NCBI RefSeq assembly: GCF_900106525.1 | Contig: NZ_FNOG01000004.1 | Coordinates: 351,464 to 415,463, forward strand | Direction: 5' to 3' | From: Lysobacter enzymogenes | GTDB lineage: Bacteria; Pseudomonadota; Gammaproteobacteria; Xanthomonadales; Xanthomonadaceae | Length of the DNA stretch: 64,000 bases | Shown here: piece after piece, positions 6,828-47,022 of the stretch | How the letters are laid out: the number at the start of each line of letters is the position of its first letter | Numbering within the stretch: position 1 is the stretch's first letter | Program-made: the position numbers and the translations under genes | The notes under the pieces: model-generated | What the model was told of the DNA's origin: nothing | Databases searched by the model: none | The model's input: the letters and a program-made list of their open reading frames with translations, nothing else

Positions 6828-6984
6828 TGTGGGAGCGGCGCGAGCCGCGACCGCGCCAATGGAGCGACGACGCGATTGACGATCGCGCGCGCGTGTTTGC
6901 AGCCGTGAGCCGTGGCCGCTCGCCTGCAACGAGGTTGCGACGCAGTTGAAGTTTCGCGGTCGCGGCTCGCGCCGCTCCTACAGG
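6828..6984. repeat. Inverted pair of interspersed palindromic repeats
   Basis: A tgtgggagcggcgcgagccg copy at 6828-6855 faces an inverted copy at 6953-6984. They lie between the YdeI-family gene and the AroQ-like gene, about 97 bases apart, with no gene between. Confidence 0.75.
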
Positions 6985-6996
6985 AGGCAGCCGGAG

Positions 6997-7590
6997 CTAG
7001 CGATGGATCTTTTCGCCGCGCGCGAGCATGTCGATCAGCTTGGCGATGCGCGCGGCGCGGGTGTCGGGCTTCTTCGCGGTGTGCACGCGCCACAGCACGG
7101 CGTAGCGGTTGGCACCATCCAAAGTGTCGAAGAAACGGCGCGCTTTGGCCGATTGTGCCAGCGCGGCGGCCAGGTCTTCGGGCATTTCGATGGTCTTGGC
7201 CGAAGCGTAGGCGGCCGCCCAGCGTCCGTCGGCCTTGGCCGCGTCGATCTCGCGCTGGCCGCCGGCGCGCATGCGCCCCTGCGCGATCAGCGCCTCGCAT
7301 TTGCCGATGTTGATCTGCGACCACAGGCTGCGCGCGCGCCGCGGTACGAAGCGCTGCAGGAAATAGGTCTCGTCCAGGCTGCGCTTCTGCCCGTCGATCC
7401 AGCCGTGGCACAAGGCCACCTCCAACGCCTGCGCGTAGTTCAAGGTGACCACGCCCGTGCCCTTCTTGGCGATCTTCAGCCACAGCCCGGCCTTGGCCGG
7501 CGGCGAAGTAAGCCAATGTTCGAACTCGGCCGCGTCGGCGAACGCGATCGCCGGCAGGTCGTCGGCCGGGCCGATGGGCTTGGCGGTCAT
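6997..7590 (-). CDS. YdeI/OmpD-associated family protein
   Basis: A 197-residue cytosolic protein of the YdeI family (sometimes annotated as bacteriocin-protection protein); the biochemical role of the family is not established. Seen: FADAAEFEHWL near the start, GLWLKIAKKGTG at about residue 37, EVALCHGWIDGQKRSLDE at about 58, FVPRRARSLWSQINI at about 80, and a basic C-terminus. The ATG at 7590 overlaps the end of the upstream phosphoesterase by four bases, so the two are an operon. A much longer frame extending to 8604 is an artefact inside the phosphoesterase gene. Confidence 0.85.
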   Translation of the reverse strand: MTAKPIGPADDLPAIAFADAAEFEHWLTSPPAKAGLWLKIAKKGTGVVTLNYAQALEVALCHGWIDGQKRSLDETYFLQRFVPRRARSLWSQINIGKCEALIAQGRMRAGGQREIDAAKADGRWAAAYASAKTIEMPEDLAAALAQSAKARRFFDTLDGANRYAVLWRVHTAKKPDTRAARIAKLIDMLARGEKIHR

Positions 7591-9254
7591 GGCGCGGCCT
7601 CGATCAGGCGATAAGAAGTGCCCAGGCGCTGTTCGCCCTGCCAGGGGTCGAACGCGCGCACCTCGATGGCATGCTCGCCGGCGGCCAGGTCGGTCGGCAA
7701 TCCGGCGTTCCACAGATGCGGCGTGGGCGTGGCGGGCGCGGCGCGGTCGAAGCCGCGCAACTGCGCGGAAGCGTCGTCGCGCGCGTTCTCGCCCAGCAGC
7801 GCCGGATCGGGCTGCTCGACCCGGCGCATCGGCTTCCACGCGCCGCCGTCGATGCGGTACTCCACGCGGCTGTCGTCGCGGCCCATGAACACGTTGGCGT
7901 AGACGCCTCGGACCGGATACGAATCCTTGCGCAGCGCCTTGGGCGCATACAGCCGCAGATACTCGTTGGCGACCGCCGCCGCGCCGAGCGCGTGCCCGGC
8001 CGACGGCGCCGGATGCCAGCTCAGCGCGTAACCGGCATCGCCGCGCACGCGCAGGCGCGCGTAGCCGTTGGGCGTGCCGTCGCTCATGGTCGAATCGGGC
8101 AGGCCCTGCGCGTCCTTGATCCCGGACCAGAACGCGCCGCAGGCCGCGCCGACGTTGTACTCGTGCAGCGGCGCCGCGCCGCGCCAGCCGCTGTCGCCGC
8201 TGTGATAGACGTGGCGCTGGGCGTGGCTGTGCCCGCTCAGCACCAGCACGTGCGGGAACTCGCGCAGCAACCCGAACAGGCGCTCGCGGTCGGCATGGCG
8301 AAAGGTCTCGCGCCCGGGCGCGGCGTCGAACAGCGGGATGTGCATCGCCAGCACCAGCAGCCGGCGCTTGTCGGCGCGGGCCAGATAGGCCTGGAGGAAA
8401 TCGAACTGCTCCGGCCGCAGCCCGCCGATGTACTCGGGTTTGGAACCGGGCAGGTAGATCACGTCGTCGAGCACGACGAAGTTGGCCTGCGCCTCTTCCC
8501 AGGCGTAAGTGTCGGGGCCGTAGACGTGGCGGTAGCTCAGCAGCGAGTCTTCGTCGCTGCGGGCGTCGAAGTCGAGATCGTGATTGCCCGGCGCGTGCAG
8601 CCACGGTACGCCCAGGCTCGCGGTGACCGCGTTGATCTGCGGATACAGCGACAGATCGTCGTGGACGATATCGCCCAGGCTCAGGCCCAGATCGGCCAGC
8701 GGCGCGCGGCCTTTGCGCTGCGCCAGCAAGGGCTCGACGATGTCGCGGCGGTAGTAGCCGATTTCGGTAGCGTTGCGGGTCTGCGGATCGGCGAACACCA
8801 GTACGTCGAGGTCGCCGCTACGCGCGGCGCGCTTGTCGGGGATCAACGCGTAATCGCGGCAGCCCGGCGCGGCCTGCGGCATCCCGCCGTATTTCAGCGG
8901 CGGCGGCGCGCTGGGGTTCACGTTGAGCCAGTAATCCGGCAGGCCGCTGTCGGCGCGCGCCGCCAGCCGATAGCCGGCCGGCTTGATCAGGAACTGGCTG
9001 CTGCGCTCGCCGGGCGGCAGCGCGTAGCGGCCCTGCGCATCGGTCAGCACGATGCTGCGGCCGTCGGACACGCGCTGCCCGGCCAGCCCGGGCTCGCCCG
9101 GATCGCGCCGGCCGTTGCCGTTGCGATCCTCGAACACCGTGCCGCCGGCGCACGGCGGCGCGGAACCGGCCGGCGCCGCGGGCGCGGCGGCCAGCGCGAC
9201 GGTGGGCATCGCAGTGAGCAGGGACAGGGCGAGCAGGCTGGCGCGCAGGCGCAT
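7587..9254 (-). CDS. Exported calcineurin-like metallophosphoesterase with SdrD B-like N-domain
   Basis: A 555-residue exported hydrolase. A Sec signal peptide (Leu/Ala-rich, ending ALAAAP at about residue 25) is followed by a B-type immunoglobulin-like domain containing the calcium-loop-like sequence DRNGNGRRDPGEPG (about 42-56). The catalytic domain follows from about 150 with the metallophosphoesterase ladder: FADPQ, GDIVHD, GNHDLDF, MHIPLF and GHSHAQRH. A C-terminal beta domain covers about 420-555. Such proteins act on phosphomonoesters or diesters in the periplasm or outside; the substrate is unknown. It is the first gene of a two-gene operon with the YdeI-family gene. Confidence 0.85.
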   Translation of the reverse strand: MRLRASLLALSLLTAMPTVALAAAPAAPAGSAPPCAGGTVFEDRNGNGRRDPGEPGLAGQRVSDGRSIVLTDAQGRYALPPGERSSQFLIKPAGYRLAARADSGLPDYWLNVNPSAPPPLKYGGMPQAAPGCRDYALIPDKRAARSGDLDVLVFADPQTRNATEIGYYRRDIVEPLLAQRKGRAPLADLGLSLGDIVHDDLSLYPQINAVTASLGVPWLHAPGNHDLDFDARSDEDSLLSYRHVYGPDTYAWEEAQANFVVLDDVIYLPGSKPEYIGGLRPEQFDFLQAYLARADKRRLLVLAMHIPLFDAAPGRETFRHADRERLFGLLREFPHVLVLSGHSHAQRHVYHSGDSGWRGAAPLHEYNVGAACGAFWSGIKDAQGLPDSTMSDGTPNGYARLRVRGDAGYALSWHPAPSAGHALGAAAVANEYLRLYAPKALRKDSYPVRGVYANVFMGRDDSRVEYRIDGGAWKPMRRVEQPDPALLGENARDDASAQLRGFDRAAPATPTPHLWNAGLPTDLAAGEHAIEVRAFDPWQGEQRLGTSYRLIEAAP

Positions 9255-36546: not shown

Positions 36547-39500
36547 CTACTTCGCCTCGCCCAACAACTCGACCTCGGCCAGCTCGATCCCGCCCGCGCC
36601 CTCGCCCACCAGCCGCAGCCGGTAACGCGAGAATGCCTGCGGCGCGGCGATGGCGAATGCGCGCGTCTGCCGCCGCCACGGGAAGTTCTGGTCGCGGCGT
36701 TCGTCCAGCGTGGTCCACTGCTGGCCGTCGTTGGAGCCTTGCAGCGCCCAGGCCGCGGCGTCGCCGGGCTTGTCGGACGAGGTCAACGTGTACAGGCGCA
36801 CGGTCGCGGCGGCCTTGAAGTTCCAGCTCAGCAAGGGCATCGGCGCGTTGAGCCGGGCCGAGGTGGTCGCGTCGTCGTCGAACAAGGCCGCGGCCTGCTT
36901 GGCGTTCAAGCCGGCGACCGTGGCGTTGTCGCGCCGGGCCAGATCGCGCAGCGGCAACGGCAGTTCGCCGTCGGCGCTCAGCGATTCGGGCAGCGCCGCG
37001 GCCGCGCTGCCCCAGTTCGACGGGATCGGCCCCATCTTGAATTCCAGCAGCGCGCCTTGCGCGAGGCGCGCATGCGGCAGGGTCAACCGCTCCCACGGCT
37101 CGCCGTCGATCTTCAGCGACTGCACGTAACGATTGCGCGCGCTGACGCCGGGCGCGCGGATCTCGATGCGCTTGCCGCCCTCCAACGCGATGCTCATGCG
37201 CTCGAAGCGCGGCGCGCCGATCACGTACTCGGGCGAGCCCATGCGCAGCGGGTAGAAGCCGGCGGCGCTGAACAACCACCACGCGGACATCTCGCCGTTG
37301 TCTTCGTCGCCCGGATAGCCCTGGCCGATGTCGCTGCCGGCGTACAGGCGATCCATGATGTCGCGCACCTTCTCCTGGATCCGCCACGGCTGCCCGGCCA
37401 TCGCGTACATGTAAGGGATGTGGTGCGAGGGCTGGTTGCTGTGGCCGTACTGGCCCATGCGCACGTCGCGCGCTTCCAGCATTTCGTGGATCACCCCGCC
37501 GTAGCTGCCGGTCTCGAAGGTGCCGGGCGTGGCGAAGAACAGGTCGAGCTTGTTGCCCAGCGCGATCCGTCCGCCGTACAGCGCGGCCAGCCCGGCGCCG
37601 TCCTGCGGCGCGTGGAAGGCCATGTTCCAGGCGTTGGTCTCGGTGTAGTCGCCGCCCCAGCGGGTCGGTTCGAACTCGGTGTCGGTCGAACGCCAGCGGC
37701 CGTCGCGGTGGCGGCCGAGGAAGAAGCCCAGGCGCGGATGGAACAGGTTGACGTAGCCCAGCGCGCGGTTGCGGTAATAGGCCGCATCGTCGGCGTAGGC
37801 ATCGCGATACGGATCGTCGGCGCCGGCCTCGCGCGACAGCGCGGTGGCCAGCGCGCCGATGGCGAAGTCGTTGATGTAGCCGTCCATCGACCACGACAGC
37901 CCCTCGTCGGTGCTGGTGTCGGTGTAGCCGCGGAAGATCGCCCGCTCGATGCCCTTGCGCCCGGTGCCGGCGAGCGGGCTGGCGCTGGACGCGTTGCGGA
38001 TCGCCGACTGATAGAACCCGCGCACATCGAAGTTGCGCACGCCCTTGAGCCAGGCGTCGGCGAAGGCCACGTCCGAACTGGTGCCGACCATCAGGTCGGC
38101 GTAGCCCGGCGACGACCAGCGCGCGATCCAGCCGCCGTCGCGGTATTGCTGGACGAAGCCGTCGATCATCTCGCCGGCGCGGGTCGGGGTCAGCAGCACA
38201 TAGGCCGGCCACGCGGTGCGGTAGGTGTCCCAGAAGCCGTTGTTGACGTAGACCCGGCCGTCGACGATGCGCGCGCCGGTACGTTCGGCGTCGCTTTGCG
38301 CCGGCGCCGGCACGAACGGGCTGGCGTACTGCCAACGCGGCTGCTGCGCGCTGCCGGTGTTCTCGCTGGCGTTGTTGGGATACAGGAACAGGCGGTAGAG
38401 ATTGGAGTACAGCGTGCTGCGCTCGTGCTCGGGCGCGCCTTCGACCTGGACGATGCCCAGTTGCGCGTCCCACGCCGCCTGCGCGCGCTCGCGCACGCTG
38501 TCGAAGTCGTCGTCGGCGGCGATTTCCAGTTCGAGATTGCGCCGCGCCTGCTCCACCGAGATCAGCGAGGTGGCGATGCGCATCGTCACCTGGCGCTCGC
38601 GGCCGAGTTCGAAGCCGTACCAGGCCGAGACCCGGTCGCGCCCGGCCTCGCGCTGCAGGCGCTCGCCTTCGCTCGGCGGCCGGTCGAAGCGCGCATAGAC
38701 ATACAGCCGCCCGGCGCCGGCGGAGAGCTTGCTCTTGTTCTCGGTCCAGCCGCTGAGCGTGCCGGTTTCGCGGTCGAGCGCGATGTCGCCGTGCTCGTCG
38801 CGCTGATCGAACAACAACCGCCCGCGCTCTTCGGGGAAGCTGAAACGCAGCATCGCGGCGTGGTCGGTCGGGGCCATCTCGGCGACCATGCCGTTGTCGA
38901 AGCGCACCCGGTAGTAATCGGCGCGCGCGGTTTCCTGGTCGTGGCCGAAGCTCAGCGCGCGCTTGCCGCGGTCGAACTCGACCGCGCCCTCGCCGGGCGC
39001 CGGAAGGATATGGAACGCCTGGCGGTCGCCCATCCACGGGCTGGGCTCGTGCGACAGCGCCAGCGCCTCCAGCCGCGGCCGGTTGGCCTCGCCGTTGCGC
39101 TCCTGGTACTGGTAGATCCAATGCGAGCCGGCGTTGGTGGTCGGCGTCCAGAAATTGAAGCCGTGCGGCAGCGCCACCGCCGGGAAGTTGTTGCCGCGCG
39201 AATAGCGCGCGTTGGAATTGCTGCCGCGGCGGGTGTCGACGAATTCGCTGGGGTGCTTGGCCGCGAGCTTGTCGAGTTCCTTGTCCTTGCGCCGCGGCGC
39301 CGGCTCGATCCGCACATCGTCGAGATAACCGCCGTAGAGCGCGCCCGCGCCGCCATCGTGGACCAGCACGATCTTGCGCACGCGCTTGCCCGCGGCCACC
39401 TCGCCGATGCGGCTGGCGACCGCGTTCCACTGGTCCGGATACAGCAGCCGCGCCTCGCCCTGGCCGCGCGCGGTCAGGGCGAAACCGTAGCGGTCGACCG

Positions 39501-39966
39501 GCTTGAGCTGCGACAGGCGGCTGCCGTCGTCGAATTCCAGGTCGAGCGCGACGAAGGTCGAGGCGTAGCGCAGATCGTCCAGTTGCCCCGCCTTCGCATC
39601 GAGTTGCCGCGCCGACAGCGGGAACAGGCGATACGACAGCTCGCTGTCCTTGCTCACCGGTACATCGACCTCGAACACCTGCGCGCGTTGCTCGCCGCCG
39701 CCGTTGCCGTCGTAACGCAGCGAATGCAGACCGGTGAAACCGGCGTCGGGCTTGGCGGTCAGCGCCGCGGCAGCGGGCGGGCCGCCGGCCGGGCTCAATC
39801 GCGGCACGGCGCCGGCGAGCAGGGATGCGGCCGGGTCGGACGGCTCGAACGAACTCCAGAACGCCCGGCTTTTGGCCTGCGCCTGCGCGCCTGCGGCCAC
39901 GGCCAATGCCGCGGCCAGCACCGCCAGCCCTGCGCCCGCGCGGCGGCCGCCTCGGTTTACCGACAT
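36547..39966 (-). CDS. Glycoside hydrolase family 92 alpha-mannosidase
   Basis: An 1139-residue exported exo-alpha-mannosidase of the GH92 family, calcium-dependent inverting enzymes that trim alpha-mannosides, typically of fungal or host glycans. Order: signal peptide (about 1-31), N-terminal beta domains with YPDQWNAVA, the GH92 core (about 230-960) with GTSSDVAFADAWLKG near 629, SMDGYINDFAIGAL near 690, TETNAWNMAFHAPQDGAG, GQYGHSNQPSHHIPYMY, and GYPGDEDNGEMSAWW near 885, then a C-terminal F5/8 type C carbohydrate-binding domain (about 1020-1139). The ATG has aagggagc upstream. It is divergent from the pga operon and shares its intergenic region. Confidence 0.93.
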   Translation of the reverse strand: MSVNRGGRRAGAGLAVLAAALAVAAGAQAQAKSRAFWSSFEPSDPAASLLAGAVPRLSPAGGPPAAAALTAKPDAGFTGLHSLRYDGNGGGEQRAQVFEVDVPVSKDSELSYRLFPLSARQLDAKAGQLDDLRYASTFVALDLEFDDGSRLSQLKPVDRYGFALTARGQGEARLLYPDQWNAVASRIGEVAAGKRVRKIVLVHDGGAGALYGGYLDDVRIEPAPRRKDKELDKLAAKHPSEFVDTRRGSNSNARYSRGNNFPAVALPHGFNFWTPTTNAGSHWIYQYQERNGEANRPRLEALALSHEPSPWMGDRQAFHILPAPGEGAVEFDRGKRALSFGHDQETARADYYRVRFDNGMVAEMAPTDHAAMLRFSFPEERGRLLFDQRDEHGDIALDRETGTLSGWTENKSKLSAGAGRLYVYARFDRPPSEGERLQREAGRDRVSAWYGFELGRERQVTMRIATSLISVEQARRNLELEIAADDDFDSVRERAQAAWDAQLGIVQVEGAPEHERSTLYSNLYRLFLYPNNASENTGSAQQPRWQYASPFVPAPAQSDAERTGARIVDGRVYVNNGFWDTYRTAWPAYVLLTPTRAGEMIDGFVQQYRDGGWIARWSSPGYADLMVGTSSDVAFADAWLKGVRNFDVRGFYQSAIRNASSASPLAGTGRKGIERAIFRGYTDTSTDEGLSWSMDGYINDFAIGALATALSREAGADDPYRDAYADDAAYYRNRALGYVNLFHPRLGFFLGRHRDGRWRSTDTEFEPTRWGGDYTETNAWNMAFHAPQDGAGLAALYGGRIALGNKLDLFFATPGTFETGSYGGVIHEMLEARDVRMGQYGHSNQPSHHIPYMYAMAGQPWRIQEKVRDIMDRLYAGSDIGQGYPGDEDNGEMSAWWLFSAAGFYPLRMGSPEYVIGAPRFERMSIALEGGKRIEIRAPGVSARNRYVQSLKIDGEPWERLTLPHARLAQGALLEFKMGPIPSNWGSAAAALPESLSADGELPLPLRDLARRDNATVAGLNAKQAAALFDDDATTSARLNAPMPLLSWNFKAAATVRLYTLTSSDKPGDAAAWALQGSNDGQQWTTLDERRDQNFPWRRQTRAFAIAAPQAFSRYRLRLVGEGAGGIELAEVELLGEAK

Positions 39967-40282: not shown

Positions 40283-42385
40283 ATGCCCACACAGCGTCCC
40301 CTGGCCCTCGCTGCCGCGCTCGCGGCGGTGATCGCAACCTGCCCTTCAACGTCAGTTTTTGCCGCACCGCGTCATAATGCAGACACCGTCGTGGGCGATC
40401 CCCTGCCCGAGATCGAGCGTCTGCGTGAACAACGGCAATGGCTGCCGGCGTTGGCGCGGATCGAAGCCGCCCAGGCCGCCCGCCCTGGCGACGACCGGCT
40501 CTATCGCCTGCAAGTGCTGACCCTGGCCGATCTCGGCGGCGCCGAGCGCGCCTGGAGCCTGGCCCAGGCCAAGCCGCAGTTGTTCAGCGAGGGCGAACGC
40601 CAGCGCCTGAGCGCCGACCGCTTCGCCCGCCGCGTGCTGTGGGGCGCGGGCTACCCGCAGAGCGAAGCCCAACGCCTGGACGAGATGCGCCAGGCGAGCG
40701 AACTGCTGGCGCAACACCGCGCCGCGCAGACCCCGCAGCAGCAACAGGCCGACCTGCGCTCGCGCTTCGACGAACTGGTGATGCTCAACTACCTGGAGCG
40801 CCACGCCGACGTGGTCGAGCGCTATCGCGCGCTGCAGGCGGAGAAGGTCGAGATCCCGATGTACGCGCTGGCCAAGGTCGGCCAGTCGCTGCTGGCGGCC
40901 AAGCATCCGGAGGAAGCGGCGACCGTGTTGGAAACCGTCGCCCGCCAGTGGCCCGAAGACGAAGACTCGCAACTGCAGCTGGCCTACGCCTATTCCGAAA
41001 GCGAGCGCTTCGGCGACGCCGACCGCCAGCTGGAGAAGATCAAGCAGGCGCAGCCCGCGTTCGTGCGCGTGCCCGGGGCCAAGGAAAGCCATCAGAACCA
41101 GCGCCATTACGACGCCGACAGCCAGCAGGCGATGATCCGCCTGTACGGCGAAGACACCGTCGGCGCGCAACAGCGCCTGGAGACGATGGCCAAGATCGGC
41201 CCGAACAATCCGGGCCTGCAGTCCGACCTGGGCGTGCTCTACCAAAAGCGCGGCTGGACCGACCGCGCGCTGGAACGCTTCCGCATGGCCCAGACGATGG
41301 AGCCGACCAACGTGTCCGCGCGCGTCGGCCAGGTCGGCGGCCTGCTCGAACACAACCGCGTCGATCTGGCCCGGCCGATCCACGACGAACTGCTGCAAAA
41401 CCGCGCGCGCGACGTCCAGGTCGAGCAGATGGGGCGCTCCTGGGACAGCCGGTTGGGCTGGCAATGGCAGGTGTCGACCGCGTTCGGCCGCAGCGATTCG
41501 GACGGCGACCGCGCCGCCACCGCTTCGCCGCTGGGCTCGCGCGATGCGACCCACAAGGTCGAAGTCGCCAGCCCGCTGATCGGCGATCGCTGGCGCCTGA
41601 CCGCGCACGCGCAAGACGCCTGGGCCGATTACGACAACGGCGACGGCGGCAAGGACCGCGTGCACGACCGCCGCACCGGCGTCGGCGCGCTGTACGCCTA
41701 CGATCGTTTGACCCTCGGCTTCGGCGTCGACCGCAGCAACGACCGCTGGCTGCCCAGCGGCGACCGCACCGGTTATTACCTCGACGCCGGCTGGCGTTTC
41801 AGCGACGTGCTGCAAGGCACCGCCTCGTGGTACGCGACCACGCCGGAGGCCTCGCTGCAGGCGCGCCGCGCCGGCCTGCACGCCGACGCGCTGAGCCTGG
41901 GCCTGCGCTGGACACCGAGCGAACGCAGCTCGCTGGCCGCGACCGCGCAGCAACTGCGCTACAGCGACGACAACACCCGCACCGCGTTCGGCCTCAGCGG
42001 CGCGCAGCGCCTGTACACCCGCCCGCACCTGCTGATCGACGGCCTGGCCGACGTGTTCGCCAGCCGCGCCAGCCGCACCGGCCCCGACATTCCCTACTTC
42101 AATCCCAGCCGCGACGGCTCGCTCAACCTCGGCCTGCGCATCGACCACCTGGCCTGGCGCCGTTACGAGCGCCACTTCCGCCAGCGCCTGACCGTGCAGG
42201 CCGGGCCGTATTGGCAGGAGAACTTCGGCAGCCACTGGGTGCCGCAGGTGCGCTACGAACACGAATGGCGCTTCGGCACCGGCCGAGTGCTGAATTACGG
42301 CGTGAACTGGTCGCGCCCGGTCTACGACGGCATCCGCGAAGACCGTCTGGGTTTCGACCTGAGCTTCCGTTGGGGAGAGCAATGA
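40283..42385 (+). CDS. pgaA: Poly-GlcNAc export porin PgaA
   Basis: Outer-membrane exporter of poly-beta-1,6-GlcNAc, 700 residues. A signal peptide (about 1-27, ending SVFA) is followed by TPR repeats (about 40-400, e.g. EEAATVLETVARQWPEDEDSQLQLAYAYSESE) and a C-terminal beta barrel (about 440-700) with alternating strands and a final strand RLGFDLSFRW. The mature N-terminus begins APRHNADTVVGD, which resembles a TonB box. The ATG at 40283 is used because it gives the signal peptide. It overlaps pgaB by ATGA. E. coli PgaA is about 100 residues longer. Confidence 0.9.
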   Translation: MPTQRPLALAAALAAVIATCPSTSVFAAPRHNADTVVGDPLPEIERLREQRQWLPALARIEAAQAARPGDDRLYRLQVLTLADLGGAERAWSLAQAKPQLFSEGERQRLSADRFARRVLWGAGYPQSEAQRLDEMRQASELLAQHRAAQTPQQQQADLRSRFDELVMLNYLERHADVVERYRALQAEKVEIPMYALAKVGQSLLAAKHPEEAATVLETVARQWPEDEDSQLQLAYAYSESERFGDADRQLEKIKQAQPAFVRVPGAKESHQNQRHYDADSQQAMIRLYGEDTVGAQQRLETMAKIGPNNPGLQSDLGVLYQKRGWTDRALERFRMAQTMEPTNVSARVGQVGGLLEHNRVDLARPIHDELLQNRARDVQVEQMGRSWDSRLGWQWQVSTAFGRSDSDGDRAATASPLGSRDATHKVEVASPLIGDRWRLTAHAQDAWADYDNGDGGKDRVHDRRTGVGALYAYDRLTLGFGVDRSNDRWLPSGDRTGYYLDAGWRFSDVLQGTASWYATTPEASLQARRAGLHADALSLGLRWTPSERSSLAATAQQLRYSDDNTRTAFGLSGAQRLYTRPHLLIDGLADVFASRASRTGPDIPYFNPSRDGSLNLGLRIDHLAWRRYERHFRQRLTVQAGPYWQENFGSHWVPQVRYEHEWRFGTGRVLNYGVNWSRPVYDGIREDRLGFDLSFRWGEQ

Positions 42386-44340
42386 GCATGACGCACGCAT
42401 CCATCCACGCCGCACTGCGCCGCGTCCTGTCCACCGCCGCGCTGCTGCTGGCCCTGCCGCTGGCCGCGCAGGCCGCGCCAGTGGCGCAAGGCGCGCAAGA
42501 CAAAGACCTCAGCGCCGCGCAGGCGGCCGAACGCGAAAGCCGCGGCGACCAGTTGCTGGTGCTGAGCTACCACGACGTGCGCGACGACGTCGCGCGCAAG
42601 GGCGACCCCGACGCCTACGCGGTCAGCACCCAGAACTTCGCCGCGCACCTGGACTGGCTGTCCGGCCACGGTTACCGCCCGGTGTCGCTGAGCGACGTCA
42701 TCAAGGCCTCGCGCGGCGAGCTCAAGCTGCCGCCCAAGGCGGTGCTGCTGACCTTCGACGACGGCCTGCGCAGCATCTACACCCACGTGTTCCCGCTGCT
42801 GCGCGCCTACAACTACCCGGCGCTGATGGCGGTGGTCACCGGCTGGGTCGACCTGCCGAAAGACCAGAAGGTCGACTACGGCCCGCGCATGTTCACCCAC
42901 GACGATTTCGTCACCTGGGACCAGTTGCGCGAGATGCAGGCCTCGGGCCTGGTCGAGATTTCCTCGCACAGCGACAACCTGCACCGCGGCATCACCTCCA
43001 ACCCGCAGGGCAACACCATGCCCGCGGCGATCACCCGCGAGTGGAGCGTCAAGGCCCAGCGCTACGAAACCGAGGCCGAATACCTCGATCGCGTGCGCCG
43101 CGACCTCACCGCCAGCAAGACCAAGATCGAGCGCGAACTGGGCGTGTCGCCGCACTCGGTGGTGTGGCCGTACGCGGCCTACAACAGCCAGACCAACGAC
43201 ATCGCCGACAAGCTCGGCATGAGCGTCACCTTCGATCTGGAAGGCCGCCACCAAACGATCGGGCGCGACCTGCACGGCCTCGCCCGCCTGTTGGTGTTCG
43301 ACAACCCCACCATCCAGGACCTCACCTTTGAGCTGCGCCACGACACCGAACTCGACGGCGTGCGCGCGCTGCAGGTCGACCTGGACTACGTCTACGACAA
43401 AGACCCGGCGCAGCAGGCGCGCAACCTCGACAAGCTGATCGAACGGATCAAGCAGGTCGGCCCCAGCCACGTGTTCCTGCAGGCCTTCGCCGACCCCGAC
43501 GGCAACGGTTCGGCCGACGCGCTGTACTTCCCCAACCGCCAGTTGCCGATGCGCGCGGACCTGTTCAACCGCGTCGCCTGGCAGATCAAGACCCGCGCCC
43601 GCGCCAAGGTGTTCGCGTGGCTGCCGGTGCTCGGCTACGAGCTGCCGGACAAGGCGCTGGACGCGCAACTGGCGATCAAGTCCAGCAACACGGCCGAAAC
43701 CCACCGGCTCAACCCGTTCGACCCGCGCACCCGCGAGATCGTCGCGCAGATCTACGAAGACCTCGCCATCAGCGGCTACACCGAAGGCCTGCTGTTCCAC
43801 GACGACGCCTTCCTGCGCGACGACGAACTGCGCGGCATCGCCCCGGCCGCGCCGGCCGCGCGCACCCAGGCGCTGATCGACTTCACCCAGGAACTGACCC
43901 GCGCCGCCGGCAAGTGGCGGCCCAAGCTGATCACCGTGCGCAACCTGTTCGCCGCGCCGGTGCTGCAGCCCAAGAGCGAGAGCTGGTTCGCCCAGGACCT
44001 GGCCGCGTTCAACAACGCCTACGACTACACCGCGGTGATGGCGATGCCGTGGATGGAGAACAGCCGCGACCCGCAGCGCTGGATGGACCAGTTGGTCGAA
44101 CGGGTCAAGGCCTCGCCGCGCGGCCTGTCGCACACCATCTTCGAACTGCAGACCGTGGACTGGCGCGACAAGAGCAAGCCGATTCCGGCCGAGCAGCTCA
44201 AGCGCATGGCGCGGCGCCTGCAGGCCGACGGCGCGCGCCATCTGGCGTGGTACCCGGACGACTTCATCGCCGACCGCCCCTCCACCGCCGACGCGCGCGA
44301 AATCATGTCCGCGCGCGGCTTCCCCTACCTCGAGAAATAA
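42382..44340 (+). CDS. pgaB: Poly-GlcNAc N-deacetylase PgaB
   Basis: Periplasmic two-domain enzyme, 652 residues, that partially deacetylates the polymer before export by PgaA. The N-terminal CE4 domain (about 45-290) shows LSYHDVRDD, LTFDDGLRS and SSHSDNLHRG (metal ligands and base); the C-terminal GH18-like domain (about 310-650) has VFAWLPVLGYELPD and LLFHDDAFLRDDE. The signal peptide ends AAQAAP without a lipobox Cys, so it is probably soluble, whereas E. coli PgaB is a lipoprotein. It overlaps pgaA and precedes pgaC by 94 bases. Confidence 0.92.
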   Translation: MSMTHASIHAALRRVLSTAALLLALPLAAQAAPVAQGAQDKDLSAAQAAERESRGDQLLVLSYHDVRDDVARKGDPDAYAVSTQNFAAHLDWLSGHGYRPVSLSDVIKASRGELKLPPKAVLLTFDDGLRSIYTHVFPLLRAYNYPALMAVVTGWVDLPKDQKVDYGPRMFTHDDFVTWDQLREMQASGLVEISSHSDNLHRGITSNPQGNTMPAAITREWSVKAQRYETEAEYLDRVRRDLTASKTKIERELGVSPHSVVWPYAAYNSQTNDIADKLGMSVTFDLEGRHQTIGRDLHGLARLLVFDNPTIQDLTFELRHDTELDGVRALQVDLDYVYDKDPAQQARNLDKLIERIKQVGPSHVFLQAFADPDGNGSADALYFPNRQLPMRADLFNRVAWQIKTRARAKVFAWLPVLGYELPDKALDAQLAIKSSNTAETHRLNPFDPRTREIVAQIYEDLAISGYTEGLLFHDDAFLRDDELRGIAPAAPAARTQALIDFTQELTRAAGKWRPKLITVRNLFAAPVLQPKSESWFAQDLAAFNNAYDYTAVMAMPWMENSRDPQRWMDQLVERVKASPRGLSHTIFELQTVDWRDKSKPIPAEQLKRMARRLQADGARHLAWYPDDFIADRPSTADAREIMSARGFPYLEK

Positions 44341-44434: not shown

Positions 44435-45694
44435 ATGAGCCCTCAAACCAGTCCACTGTTGACCGCGCTGTTCCAGTTCGCGTTCTTCTATCCGATCGTG
44501 ATGTCGTTCTTCTGGATCGCCGGCGGGCTGTATTACTACTTCCGCCGCGAGCGCAGCGCGCGCGGCCGCACCGACCCGCCGCCGCTGGACGCGGCGCCGT
44601 TCGTCAGCATCCTGATCCCCTGCCACAACGAAGGCGACCACGTCCACGAAACCATCGCCGCCGCGCTGGCCCAGCGCTATCCCGATTTCGAAGTGATCGC
44701 GATCAACGACGGCAGCCGCGACGACACCGGCGAGCAGCTCAACCGCCTCGCCGCGATCCACCCGCGCCTGCGCGTGGTCCATCTGGACCGCAACCTGGGC
44801 AAGGCCAACGGCATGCGCATGGGCGCGCTGGCGGCGCGCTCGGAATACCTGGTGTGCATCGACGGCGATGCGCTGCTGGACGAATACGCCACCCACTGGA
44901 TGGTCTGGCACCTGATCTCCGGCGCGCGCGTCGGCGCGGTCACCGGCAACCCGCGCATCCGCAACCGCTCGACCTTGCTCGGCCGGCTGCAGGTCGGCGA
45001 GTTCTCCTCGATCATCGGCATGATCAAGCGCGCCCAGCGCGTGTACGGCCGCATCTTCACCGTGTCCGGGGTGATCTGCGCGTTCCGGCGCAGCGCCCTG
45101 CACCGCATCGGCTACTGGTCCGATTCGATGGTGACCGAGGACATCGACATCAGCTGGCGCCTGCAGATGGACCACTGGGACATCCGCTACGAACCCAACG
45201 CGATGTGCTTCATCCTCATGCCCGAAACCCTCAAGGGCCTGTGGAAACAGCGCCTGCGCTGGGCCCAGGGCGGCGTGGAAGTGCTGCTGCGCCACAGCCG
45301 CGACCTGTTCTCGTGGCGCAAGCGGCGGATGTGGGCGGTGATGGCCGAGTACGTCGCCAGCGTCGCCTGGGCCTACATCATGGCCTTCATCATTTTGCTG
45401 TGGGCGCTGGGCCTGTTCGTCGATCTGCCGGTGCAACTGCGCGTGAGCACGCTGCTGCCGTCGTGGCACGGAGTGATCCTGGCGCTGATCTGCCTGCTCC
45501 AGTTCGCTGCCAGCATCATCATCGATCGACGTTACGAAACCGGTGTCGGCCGCAATTACTACTGGATGATCTGGTACCCGATGGCCTATTGGCTGTTGAG
45601 CTTCTTCACCACCGTCACCGCGGTGCCCAAGGCCCTGCTCAAGCGCCGCGGCACCCTCGCGACCTGGGTCAGCCCGGACCGGGGGCTGCGATGA
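44435..45694 (+). CDS. pgaC: Poly-GlcNAc synthase PgaC
   Basis: Processive GT2 beta-1,6-N-acetylglucosaminyltransferase in the inner membrane, 419 residues. One or two N-terminal helices, then ILIPCHNEGDH, AINDGSRDD, the DxD site CIDGDALLDE, TEDIDISWRL and the QRLRWAQGG motif, followed by three C-terminal helices. In E. coli PgaC works with PgaD and is stabilised by c-di-GMP bound at their interface. Its stop overlaps the start of the PgaD fusion gene. Confidence 0.95.
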   Translation: MSPQTSPLLTALFQFAFFYPIVMSFFWIAGGLYYYFRRERSARGRTDPPPLDAAPFVSILIPCHNEGDHVHETIAAALAQRYPDFEVIAINDGSRDDTGEQLNRLAAIHPRLRVVHLDRNLGKANGMRMGALAARSEYLVCIDGDALLDEYATHWMVWHLISGARVGAVTGNPRIRNRSTLLGRLQVGEFSSIIGMIKRAQRVYGRIFTVSGVICAFRRSALHRIGYWSDSMVTEDIDISWRLQMDHWDIRYEPNAMCFILMPETLKGLWKQRLRWAQGGVEVLLRHSRDLFSWRKRRMWAVMAEYVASVAWAYIMAFIILLWALGLFVDLPVQLRVSTLLPSWHGVILALICLLQFAASIIIDRRYETGVGRNYYWMIWYPMAYWLLSFFTTVTAVPKALLKRRGTLATWVSPDRGLR

Positions 45695-47022
45695 GCAACG
45701 ACCGCCGCCCGCCCGACGAAGGCGCGCCGCCGCGCGGCGCCGACACCGGCCGCGCCGCCGACGGCTTCTCGCGTCCGGCGCACAGCACCGCCGCGCCGCC
45801 GCTGGCGCCGGCGAAATCCGCCGCACCCGCAGCACCCGGCAAGTCCAACAAGGCCGACAAACCCGCCTCGCACAAGCACGACTCGCGCCTGATCCAGAAA
45901 CCCGGCTCGCAGCACCCGCTGCCGCGCACGCTGTGGGGCGTGGTCACCGGCGCGTTCTGGCTGGCGTATCTGTACCTGTGGACGCCGGTGCTGACCCTGG
46001 TGCTGTGGCTGCTGGGCCTGCGCACGGTGGCCTCGGAGCTGTACCTGCGCACCCACGAAGTCGATCCGTTCCTGATGCTGGCCCTGCCCGCCACCGCCGC
46101 CGCAGTGGTCGCGCTGCTGCTGACGTGGGCCGAGTACAACCGCTGGCGTTTCGCCGGCGACGACGCCGAACGCCGCACCCGCCTGGCCGACGTGAGCCTG
46201 GACGAGGTCGCGCAAAGCCTCGGCGCCAGCGCCGAAGTGGCGCAGGCGCTCAACGCCGGCCGCGTCAGCGTGCTGCACATGGATACCAACCAGGCCGTGC
46301 CGCTGTCGGTGACCGCGGTGACGCCGAACCCGCCCGCGCAAAACCCGTTCCCGCCGCTGCCGCCCAAGCCGCGCTTTACCCGCACCGCGACCGCGCCGAG
46401 CAGCAACTGGCTGCTGGTGGTGGCGTTGGCGGCGATCGCGCTGGTGATCGGCGTGTTGATCGTGGTTTCGCACGGTTATCGCCAGATCGAAAGCTCCGAG
46501 CCGGTGCACGGGTTGGAAGGCGCACCGGGCATGGACCGTCCGGCGCTGCCGGCGAACGCCGACGGCCCGGGCTTCGTCGGCCCGGCCGACGACGCAGTGG
46601 CCGGCACGCCGGACGCCGCGACCCCGAACGCCGCCGCGCAAGCGGCCAGCGCCAAAGCCGATGCCGCCACCCGCGCGCGCGAAGCCAAAGCGCGGCGCGA
46701 GGCCCAGGCCAAAGCCCTGGCGCAACGCAAGGCCGCCGCGGCCAGCGCCAAACCGCGCCCGCTGCCCGGCTTCAGCCCCAAACCGGTCTACCCGCTGGAC
46801 GCGCTGCGCCAATCCGAAAGCGGCCTGGTGACCTTGCGCGTGCAAGTCTCGGCGCAGGGCGAACCGACCCGGGTCGACGTCAGCCGCCGCAGCGGCTTCC
46901 GCGCGCTCGACCGCGCCGCGGTCAGCACCGTGCGGCGCTGGAAGTTCGCGCCTGCGATGCGCGAAGGCAAGCCGGTGGCGGCGGTGGTGATCGTGCCGGT
47001 GGAGTTCAAGCCGCGCGATTAA
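45691..47022 (+). CDS. PgaD-TonB fusion protein
   Basis: A 443-residue inner-membrane protein with two parts. Part one is PgaD-like: a disordered Ala/Pro/Lys-rich N-tail (1-75), two helices (about 81-108 and 127-147) and the cytosolic WAEYNRWRF motif expected of PgaD, which in E. coli is only about 137 residues. Part two is a complete TonB-like module: a third helix (about 240-261), a long Ala/Pro/Lys linker (262-360) and a TonB C-terminal domain (361-441) with PVYPLDALRQSESGLV, SAQGEPTRVDVSRRSGF and VRRWKFAPAMREGKP. The frame is continuous with uniform base composition, so it is a true fusion, not a sequencing join. The start overlaps the pgaC stop. No exbB or exbD lies nearby. Confidence 0.88.
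   Translation: MSNDRRPPDEGAPPRGADTGRAADGFSRPAHSTAAPPLAPAKSAAPAAPGKSNKADKPASHKHDSRLIQKPGSQHPLPRTLWGVVTGAFWLAYLYLWTPVLTLVLWLLGLRTVASELYLRTHEVDPFLMLALPATAAAVVALLLTWAEYNRWRFAGDDAERRTRLADVSLDEVAQSLGASAEVAQALNAGRVSVLHMDTNQAVPLSVTAVTPNPPAQNPFPPLPPKPRFTRTATAPSSNWLLVVALAAIALVIGVLIVVSHGYRQIESSEPVHGLEGAPGMDRPALPANADGPGFVGPADDAVAGTPDAATPNAAAQAASAKADAATRAREAKARREAQAKALAQRKAAAASAKPRPLPGFSPKPVYPLDALRQSESGLVTLRVQVSAQGEPTRVDVSRRSGFRALDRAAVSTVRRWKFAPAMREGKPVAAVVIVPVEFKPRD

Follow-up and report, generated by a model that had tools for sequence, protein, structure and literature searches.

A PgaD–TonB fusion protein in the pga operon of Lysobacter enzymogenes, a candidate trans-envelope arm on the PNAG synthase

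Results

The window, by which we mean the whole 64,000-nucleotide stretch of Lysobacter enzymogenes DNA that was analysed, contains a pgaABCD operon that looks intact, since pgaA, pgaB and pgaC all score above their NCBIfam equivalog cut-offs (Table 1). The pgaB ATG overlaps the pgaA stop, and the pgaC stop and the ATG of the last gene overlap as ATGA. This last gene had been described in an initial annotation, made from the sequence alone, as encoding a 443-residue fusion of PgaD and TonB. We find a single reading frame with exactly these bounds and zero internal stops. In a related species, Lysobacter capsici, pgaABC is expressed, and a gidA mutant shows lower pgaABC expression and forms less biofilm (PMC8969512).

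Table 1. Genes and protein segments at the pga locus (window positions; bit scores from NCBIfam profiles)
Feature	Position	Strand	Residues	Remarks
GH92 glycoside hydrolase gene	36547..39966	-		Pfam; divergent, before pgaA
pgaA	40283..42385	+		TPR and outer-membrane barrel; TIGR03939, 391.2 bits (cut-off 366.65)
pgaB	42382..44340	+		deacetylase; TIGR03938, 794.8 bits (cut-off 321.9)
pgaC	44435..45694	+		synthase; TIGR03937, 639.3 bits (cut-off 422.3)
pgaD-tonB fusion gene	45691..47022	+	443 aa	Pfam, NCBIfam
Variable N-terminal tail	45691..45870	+	1-60	
PgaD domain	45871..46308	+	61-206 (Pfam 68-200)	WAEYNRWRF
Transmembrane helices of the PgaD part				hydropathy cores 91-109 and 127-145
Proline-rich stretch 5' of TM3	46309..46401	+	207-237	putatively on the cytoplasmic side
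TM3, third transmembrane helix	46402..46476	+	238-262	hydropathy core 241-259
Juxtamembrane stretch	46477..46551	+	263-287	EGxPGxDRP
Ala-rich linker	46552..46746	+	288-352	
TonB C-terminal domain (tip)	46747..47019	+	353-443 (Pfam 363-440)	

Both domains of the fusion protein exceed their Pfam and NCBIfam cut-offs, confirming the architecture. The PgaD domain scores 76.3 bits in Pfam (3.1e-21; cut-off 27) and 108.9 bits against TIGR03940, PGA_PgaD (cut-off 31.45). The doubt raised with the annotation, that the C-terminal part might fail to score as TonB_C, is dispelled by an above-cut-off Pfam match (1.7e-21) and by 69.7 bits against TIGR01352, tonB_Cterm (cut-off 27.1); tolA_full from NCBIfam reaches only 14.6 bits, below its cut-off of 59.45. 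As had been assumed for an ordinary PgaD, the E. coli protein has 137 residues and PgaD as its only match above the curated Pfam cut-off, and the 172-residue PgaD of an unfused congener likewise matches PgaD alone. The first 150 residues had been called PgaD-like; their identity as PgaD and the presence of two helices hold, and only the extent needs correction, with the domain match lying at 68-200 behind a variable tail of about 60 residues. By hydropathy, the PgaD part spans the membrane twice in all 17 fusions that we collected (see below). The proline-rich stretch would lie in the cytoplasm, and the arm would point outward past TM3. Just outside TM3, an EGxPGxDRP sequence is present in all 15 Lysobacter fusions and absent from the other two, those of G087 and G158 (15/17).

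Surveyed in samples of genomes, the fusion has a narrow taxonomic range. All 20 genomes of the genus encode a pgaD, which is the full fusion in 15 and a plain PgaD of 169-189 residues in five. A search of 390 family genomes, including these 20, returned a full-length match in 17, namely the same 15 together with G087 and G158, two genomes of another genus (2 of the 370 further family genomes); among the matches listed, the remaining PgaD matches stop by model position 227. No further fusion was found in samples of the order (398 genomes, limit E 1e-34), class (369, 1e-34) and phylum (398, 1e-28), which overlap each other and the family set; as these searches covered samples of genomes, they could have overlooked an independent fusion in a distant group. 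A scan of named genomes gave five fusion loci, all in Lysobacter, including L. antibioticus and several strains named Lysobacter sp. A match occurs in 17 plasmid records, none over 80% of the query, and the ten of them that were listed match the tip only. No separate tonB lies beside the pga operon at any of the 24 unfused loci compared (from about 6.5 kb before the match to about 2.5 kb behind it). The suspicion that the fusion arose in assembly can be laid to rest: it is no artefact, because 15 of the 20 genus genomes carry it in full, seven of these 15 being assembled as one contig each.

Structure prediction with AlphaFold2, carried out on six sequences, gave a fusion-protein model that is weak overall (mean pLDDT 53) and contains a confident fold at residues 381-440 (block pLDDT 81-89), in the C-terminal domain. 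When this model was compared with the PDB by Foldseek, the best 16 matches were TonB, HasB or FusB C-terminal domains and rank 17 was TolA; a single match has E <= 0.001, and rmsd values are 5-20 Å across whole alignments. Among proteins of solved structure, TonB2 comes closest to the tip by sequence (phmmer; 2k9k, 6.2e-8). Elsewhere, helices were modelled at 77-107 and 126-155 (pLDDT about 46-61), at 239-268 in the TM3 region, within a low-confidence part, and, with middling confidence, at 316-350 of the linker. With a mean pLDDT of only 53, the assignment of TM3 and the linker draws on sequence.

Selection on the individual segments was estimated as summed dN over summed dS from eleven pairs of close relatives; as the pairs have species in common, they are not independent. 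The PgaD domain gave a ratio of 0.16, the proline-rich stretch 0.22, TM3 0.23 (10 of 11 pairs usable), the juxtamembrane stretch 0.19 and the TonB tip 0.24; the linker stood at 0.60 and the N-terminal tail, with 10 of 11 pairs usable, at 0.66. TM3, the juxtamembrane stretch and the tip are thus under purifying selection. All 15 clade members have kept the tip, at a mean identity of 76%, next to 77% for the PgaD domain. The linker measures 77-98 residues in all 17 fusions (76-94 by another measure), and its mean identity falls to 28% among the 15 fused Lysobacter. The tip has thus been preserved, and how far the arm can reach is conserved better than the sequence of the linker. The linker had been likened to the Ala/Pro/Lys type; it is indeed rich in alanine (23%) but not in proline as in TonB, with a median of 12% Pro across the 17 fusions (range 7-22%) against 42% in one usual-type TonB of this genome.

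The initial annotation also proposed that the arm would couple the proton-motive force and the outer membrane to polymer synthesis or export. In a structure from E. coli, the TonB helix touches ExbB with Ser16 and His20 of its SHLS motif (PMC12215075), and TonB binds ExbD via a D-box (PMC12215075, PMC10907165). We searched the anchor helices for the relaxed motif [SACTG]-X3-His instead of Ser-X3-His and found it in the TM3 of none of the 17 fusions. Controls were nine usual-type TonBs from the same genomes, chosen by eye for an N-terminal anchor: five have the motif, all as Ala-X3-His (L003, L156, L165, L166, L169), one has a His without the small residue (L159), and three carry Asn instead of His (L001, L168, L170), so that a missing His is not decisive on its own. 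L008 from the same genome as the window, outside this control set, has a true Ser-X3-His by eye. Among the fusions, that of G087 has a His just before TM3, and 5 of the 17 have Gln or Phe in place of the His found at the outer end of this helix. A strict D-box pattern after the anchor occurs in 0 of 17 fusions and was not counted, because it is too insensitive, detecting only one of the nine usual-type TonBs.

Six ExbD genes are present in the genome; three of them follow, on contig C3, the gene of the usual-type TonB with 42% Pro, and contig C9, to which the window belongs, has no ExbD gene. Pfam shows no plug domain in PgaA, and none of the genome's 59 plug-domain matches falls inside the window. 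The proposed link to the proton-motive force is therefore not borne out by the absent motif (0/17), the plug-less PgaA and the lack of an ExbD gene on the contig, whereas the link towards the outer membrane is retained on the grounds of architecture, probable topology and selection. "Full TonB" is too strong a description: a membrane anchor and a TonB C-terminal domain are present, but the anchor is the third helix of a PgaD and lacks the motor histidine.

We also looked for features of the exporter proteins that accompany the arm. The TIGR03939 match of the window's PgaA begins only at profile position 165 out of 800, and PgaA proteins of the compared family loci have about 675-700 residues (653 in one) versus 807 in E. 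coli; one of 570 residues (G334) has a misassigned start and was omitted from the PgaA tree. In 40 of 41 family PgaA proteins, 81-98 of the 188 residues spanning E. coli PgaA 33-220 have counterparts. E. coli PgaB has a lipobox, while in 38 of the 41 family loci nothing resembling a lipobox precedes the deacetylase motif of PgaB. In all 17 fused species, the window included, PgaB is without a Cys there to which a lipid could be attached, and 21 of the 24 unfused PgaB proteins also lack a lipobox-like motif, the exceptions being G163, G171 and G386 (in G386 the motif precedes the likely start). Neither the short PgaA nor the lipobox-less PgaB tracks the fusion, because unfused relatives have both. 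We therefore rejected two ideas: that the arm and a shortened PgaA N-terminus compensate for each other, since PgaA is short in fused and unfused loci alike, and that the missing lipid anchor of PgaB goes with the fusion. No PgaA stretch of more than two residues is specific to the 15 fused Lysobacter as against the other 26 loci. A candidate TonB box, the DTVVG that follows the signal peptide in the window's PgaA, was discarded, as by eye it is missing in the other 14 fused Lysobacter.

How the fusion arose was approached with 41 pga loci, of which 20 are from the genus and 21 were chosen from the family; the TonB tip occurs at the 17 fused and at none of the 24 unfused loci. In a PgaC tree the fused Lysobacter stand beside unfused Lysobacter; in the PgaA and PgaB trees their nearest relatives are the unfused G070 and G173. 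From this disagreement the operon is a mosaic (loci L104-L143), PgaA/PgaB and PgaC of the fused Lysobacter having different nearest relatives. Since G070 and G173 are unfused, the divergence of PgaA and PgaB follows this mosaic ancestry and not the fusion. G087 and G158 group with the unfused G050 and G115 in all three trees. The PgaD-domain tree, however, has a branch (84/90) that sets the 17 fusions together apart from the rest, and the alternative that joins G087/G158 to G050/G115 is not rejected (p-AU 0.344). A tree of the tips (86 columns; TonB tips under 78 residues left out) is poorly resolved, with six long-branched usual-type TonBs falling among the fusions, and a single fusion clade is not rejected (p-AU 0.335). 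One fusion event followed by one transfer would be the simplest reading, and we favour it on these sequence comparisons; a double origin is disfavoured by the PgaD-domain tree, which unites the 17 fusions, despite the PgaA, PgaB and PgaC trees.

The tip tree leaves the donor unsettled. By score, the closest paralogs of the tip among those compared are a tandem TonB-like pair between aroA and serS (L173, G000:C7:294000-309000, about 6950-8400, - strand). These are one-helix proteins whose copies lack [SACTG]-X3-His, and similar pairs occur in other family genomes.

Discussion

Our analysis describes a PgaD with an additional arm that is probably extracytoplasmic. The protein resembles PgaD (TIGR03940, PF13994) in its profile match, its two helices and its place as the last gene of pgaABCD, in ATGA overlap with pgaC. 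Unlike E. coli PgaD, it is more than a small membrane subunit (443 residues versus 137), adding a third helix, a linker, a TonB C-terminal domain and a variable N-terminal tail. With TonB (TIGR01352, PF03544) it shares the C-terminal domain, recognised by profile and predicted fold, a membrane anchor and a linker of about 90 residues. It departs from TonB in its anchor, a PgaD helix without [SACTG]-X3-His, in its linker, which is Ala-rich and has less proline, and in its setting, as the window contains neither an ExbD gene nor a gene for a plug-bearing receptor. We found no PgaD–TonB protein, and no work joining PgaD, TonB and Lysobacter, in the titles and abstract openings of the papers listed by literature searches that lacked most subscription papers. 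A survey of exopolysaccharide operons treats gene fusions, and its main text mentions neither TonB nor Lysobacter (PMC7112194).

What could such an arm do? In E. coli, a complex of PgaD and PgaC is stabilised by c-di-GMP, as reviewed in PMC8461298. According to PMC9384988, a link between the PgaCD and PgaAB complexes is without experimental support, and the same paper proposes PgaA residues 33-220 as a membrane bridge in E. coli. A tie of the synthase to the outer membrane is plausible from the architecture of the fusion protein, its likely topology and the selection acting on it, and we propose the following model, to which we assign a probability of about one half. The arm would be an unpowered tether across the envelope, joining the PgaCD synthase to the PgaA/PgaB exporter. 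The two PgaD helices would sit with PgaC, in a complex that c-di-GMP may stabilise as in E. coli. The third helix would carry the chain out of the cytoplasm, and the linker, kept in length, would take the TonB-type domain towards the outer membrane or the cell wall. There the tip may dock, by the strand pairing known from TonB tips, on the periplasmic face of PgaA/PgaB or of a partner of theirs, and synthesis and export would be held at one site. If 35 residues form a helix and all others an extended chain, the fully stretched linker would measure roughly 230 Å by simple arithmetic, and an arm with a linker of 77-98 residues could span the envelope gap. We count in favour of the tether the two domain matches, the confident fold of the tip, the purifying selection on TM3, the juxtamembrane stretch and the tip, the conserved length of the linker, the motor histidine missing from all 17 fusions, the absence of about half of the PgaA bridge segment and a PgaB without a Cys for a lipid; against it stand the five congeners without an arm, the lack of a fusion-specific stretch in PgaA, the mosaic ancestry behind the divergence of PgaA and PgaB, and the occurrence of the PgaA/PgaB features in unfused relatives too.

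TonB domains have an affinity for peptidoglycan. It is conceivable that the tip binds the wall and pins the synthase there without contacting PgaA/PgaB, and the linker would be long enough for it to reach the wall; the lack of a fusion-specific insertion in PgaA would also fit. We consider this unlikely, as no known peptidoglycan-binding family matches the protein in Pfam or NCBIfam at E values up to 1.

ExbBD, or TolQR, might instead drive the arm by the proton-motive force, so that it pulls on PgaA/PgaB for polymer export. Such a powered arm would make use of a genuine TonB C-terminal domain on an inner-membrane anchor in a genome with six ExbD genes, and the three usual-type TonBs with Asn in place of His mean that the missing His does not decide the matter by itself. 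It is nevertheless disfavoured, and we rate it as improbable: the motif found in five of nine usual-type TonBs is absent from TM3 throughout the fusions, the linker is far poorer in proline than that of the genome's own usual-type TonB, PgaA offers no plug, and the contig has no ExbD gene. A variant that we regard as similarly improbable is a dynamic coupler that bears force. Here c-di-GMP would lock PgaD on PgaC, the tip would capture the exporter, and either an ion motor, through a non-histidine contact, or the growing polymer itself would act through the arm. If this were true, PNAG would be the first exopolysaccharide of the synthase-dependent kind to be coupled across the envelope in the manner of TonB.

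The tip could also dock on the TonB boxes of TonB-dependent receptors and so tie PNAG synthesis to nutrient or surface sensing. Potential partners are numerous, judging from the 59 plug-domain matches in the genome, but with none of them inside the window and no receptor tied to the fusion we hold this role to be doubtful. That read-through or recombination merely joined a tonB-like gene to pgaD, leaving an idle tail, would agree with the five armless congeners and with the restriction of the fusion, among the sampled genomes, to a single genus and two relatives, and is very improbable in view of the dN/dS values of the tip (0.24) and of TM3 and the juxtamembrane stretch (0.19-0.23) and of a tip kept by every clade member at nearly the identity of the PgaD domain.

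The tether that we prefer has partial parallels in other envelope machines. In the gliding machinery of Myxococcus, TonB C-terminal domains occur in GltG and GltJ, outside nutrient uptake, and these proteins have been proposed to work with the AglRQS channel (PMC5349195); we liken them to the present protein by their description. The contact of Alg44 with AlgK in the alginate system is a related case, made by proteins that differ from PgaD–TonB. To our knowledge, Alg44 has no TonB domain. With a natural trans-envelope arm on a PNAG synthase subunit and close relatives that are armless, Lysobacter, a genus of soil bacteria, makes the link between synthase and exporter directly testable. If the tether is true, polysaccharide export would have taken over a TonB domain for use as a structural arm.
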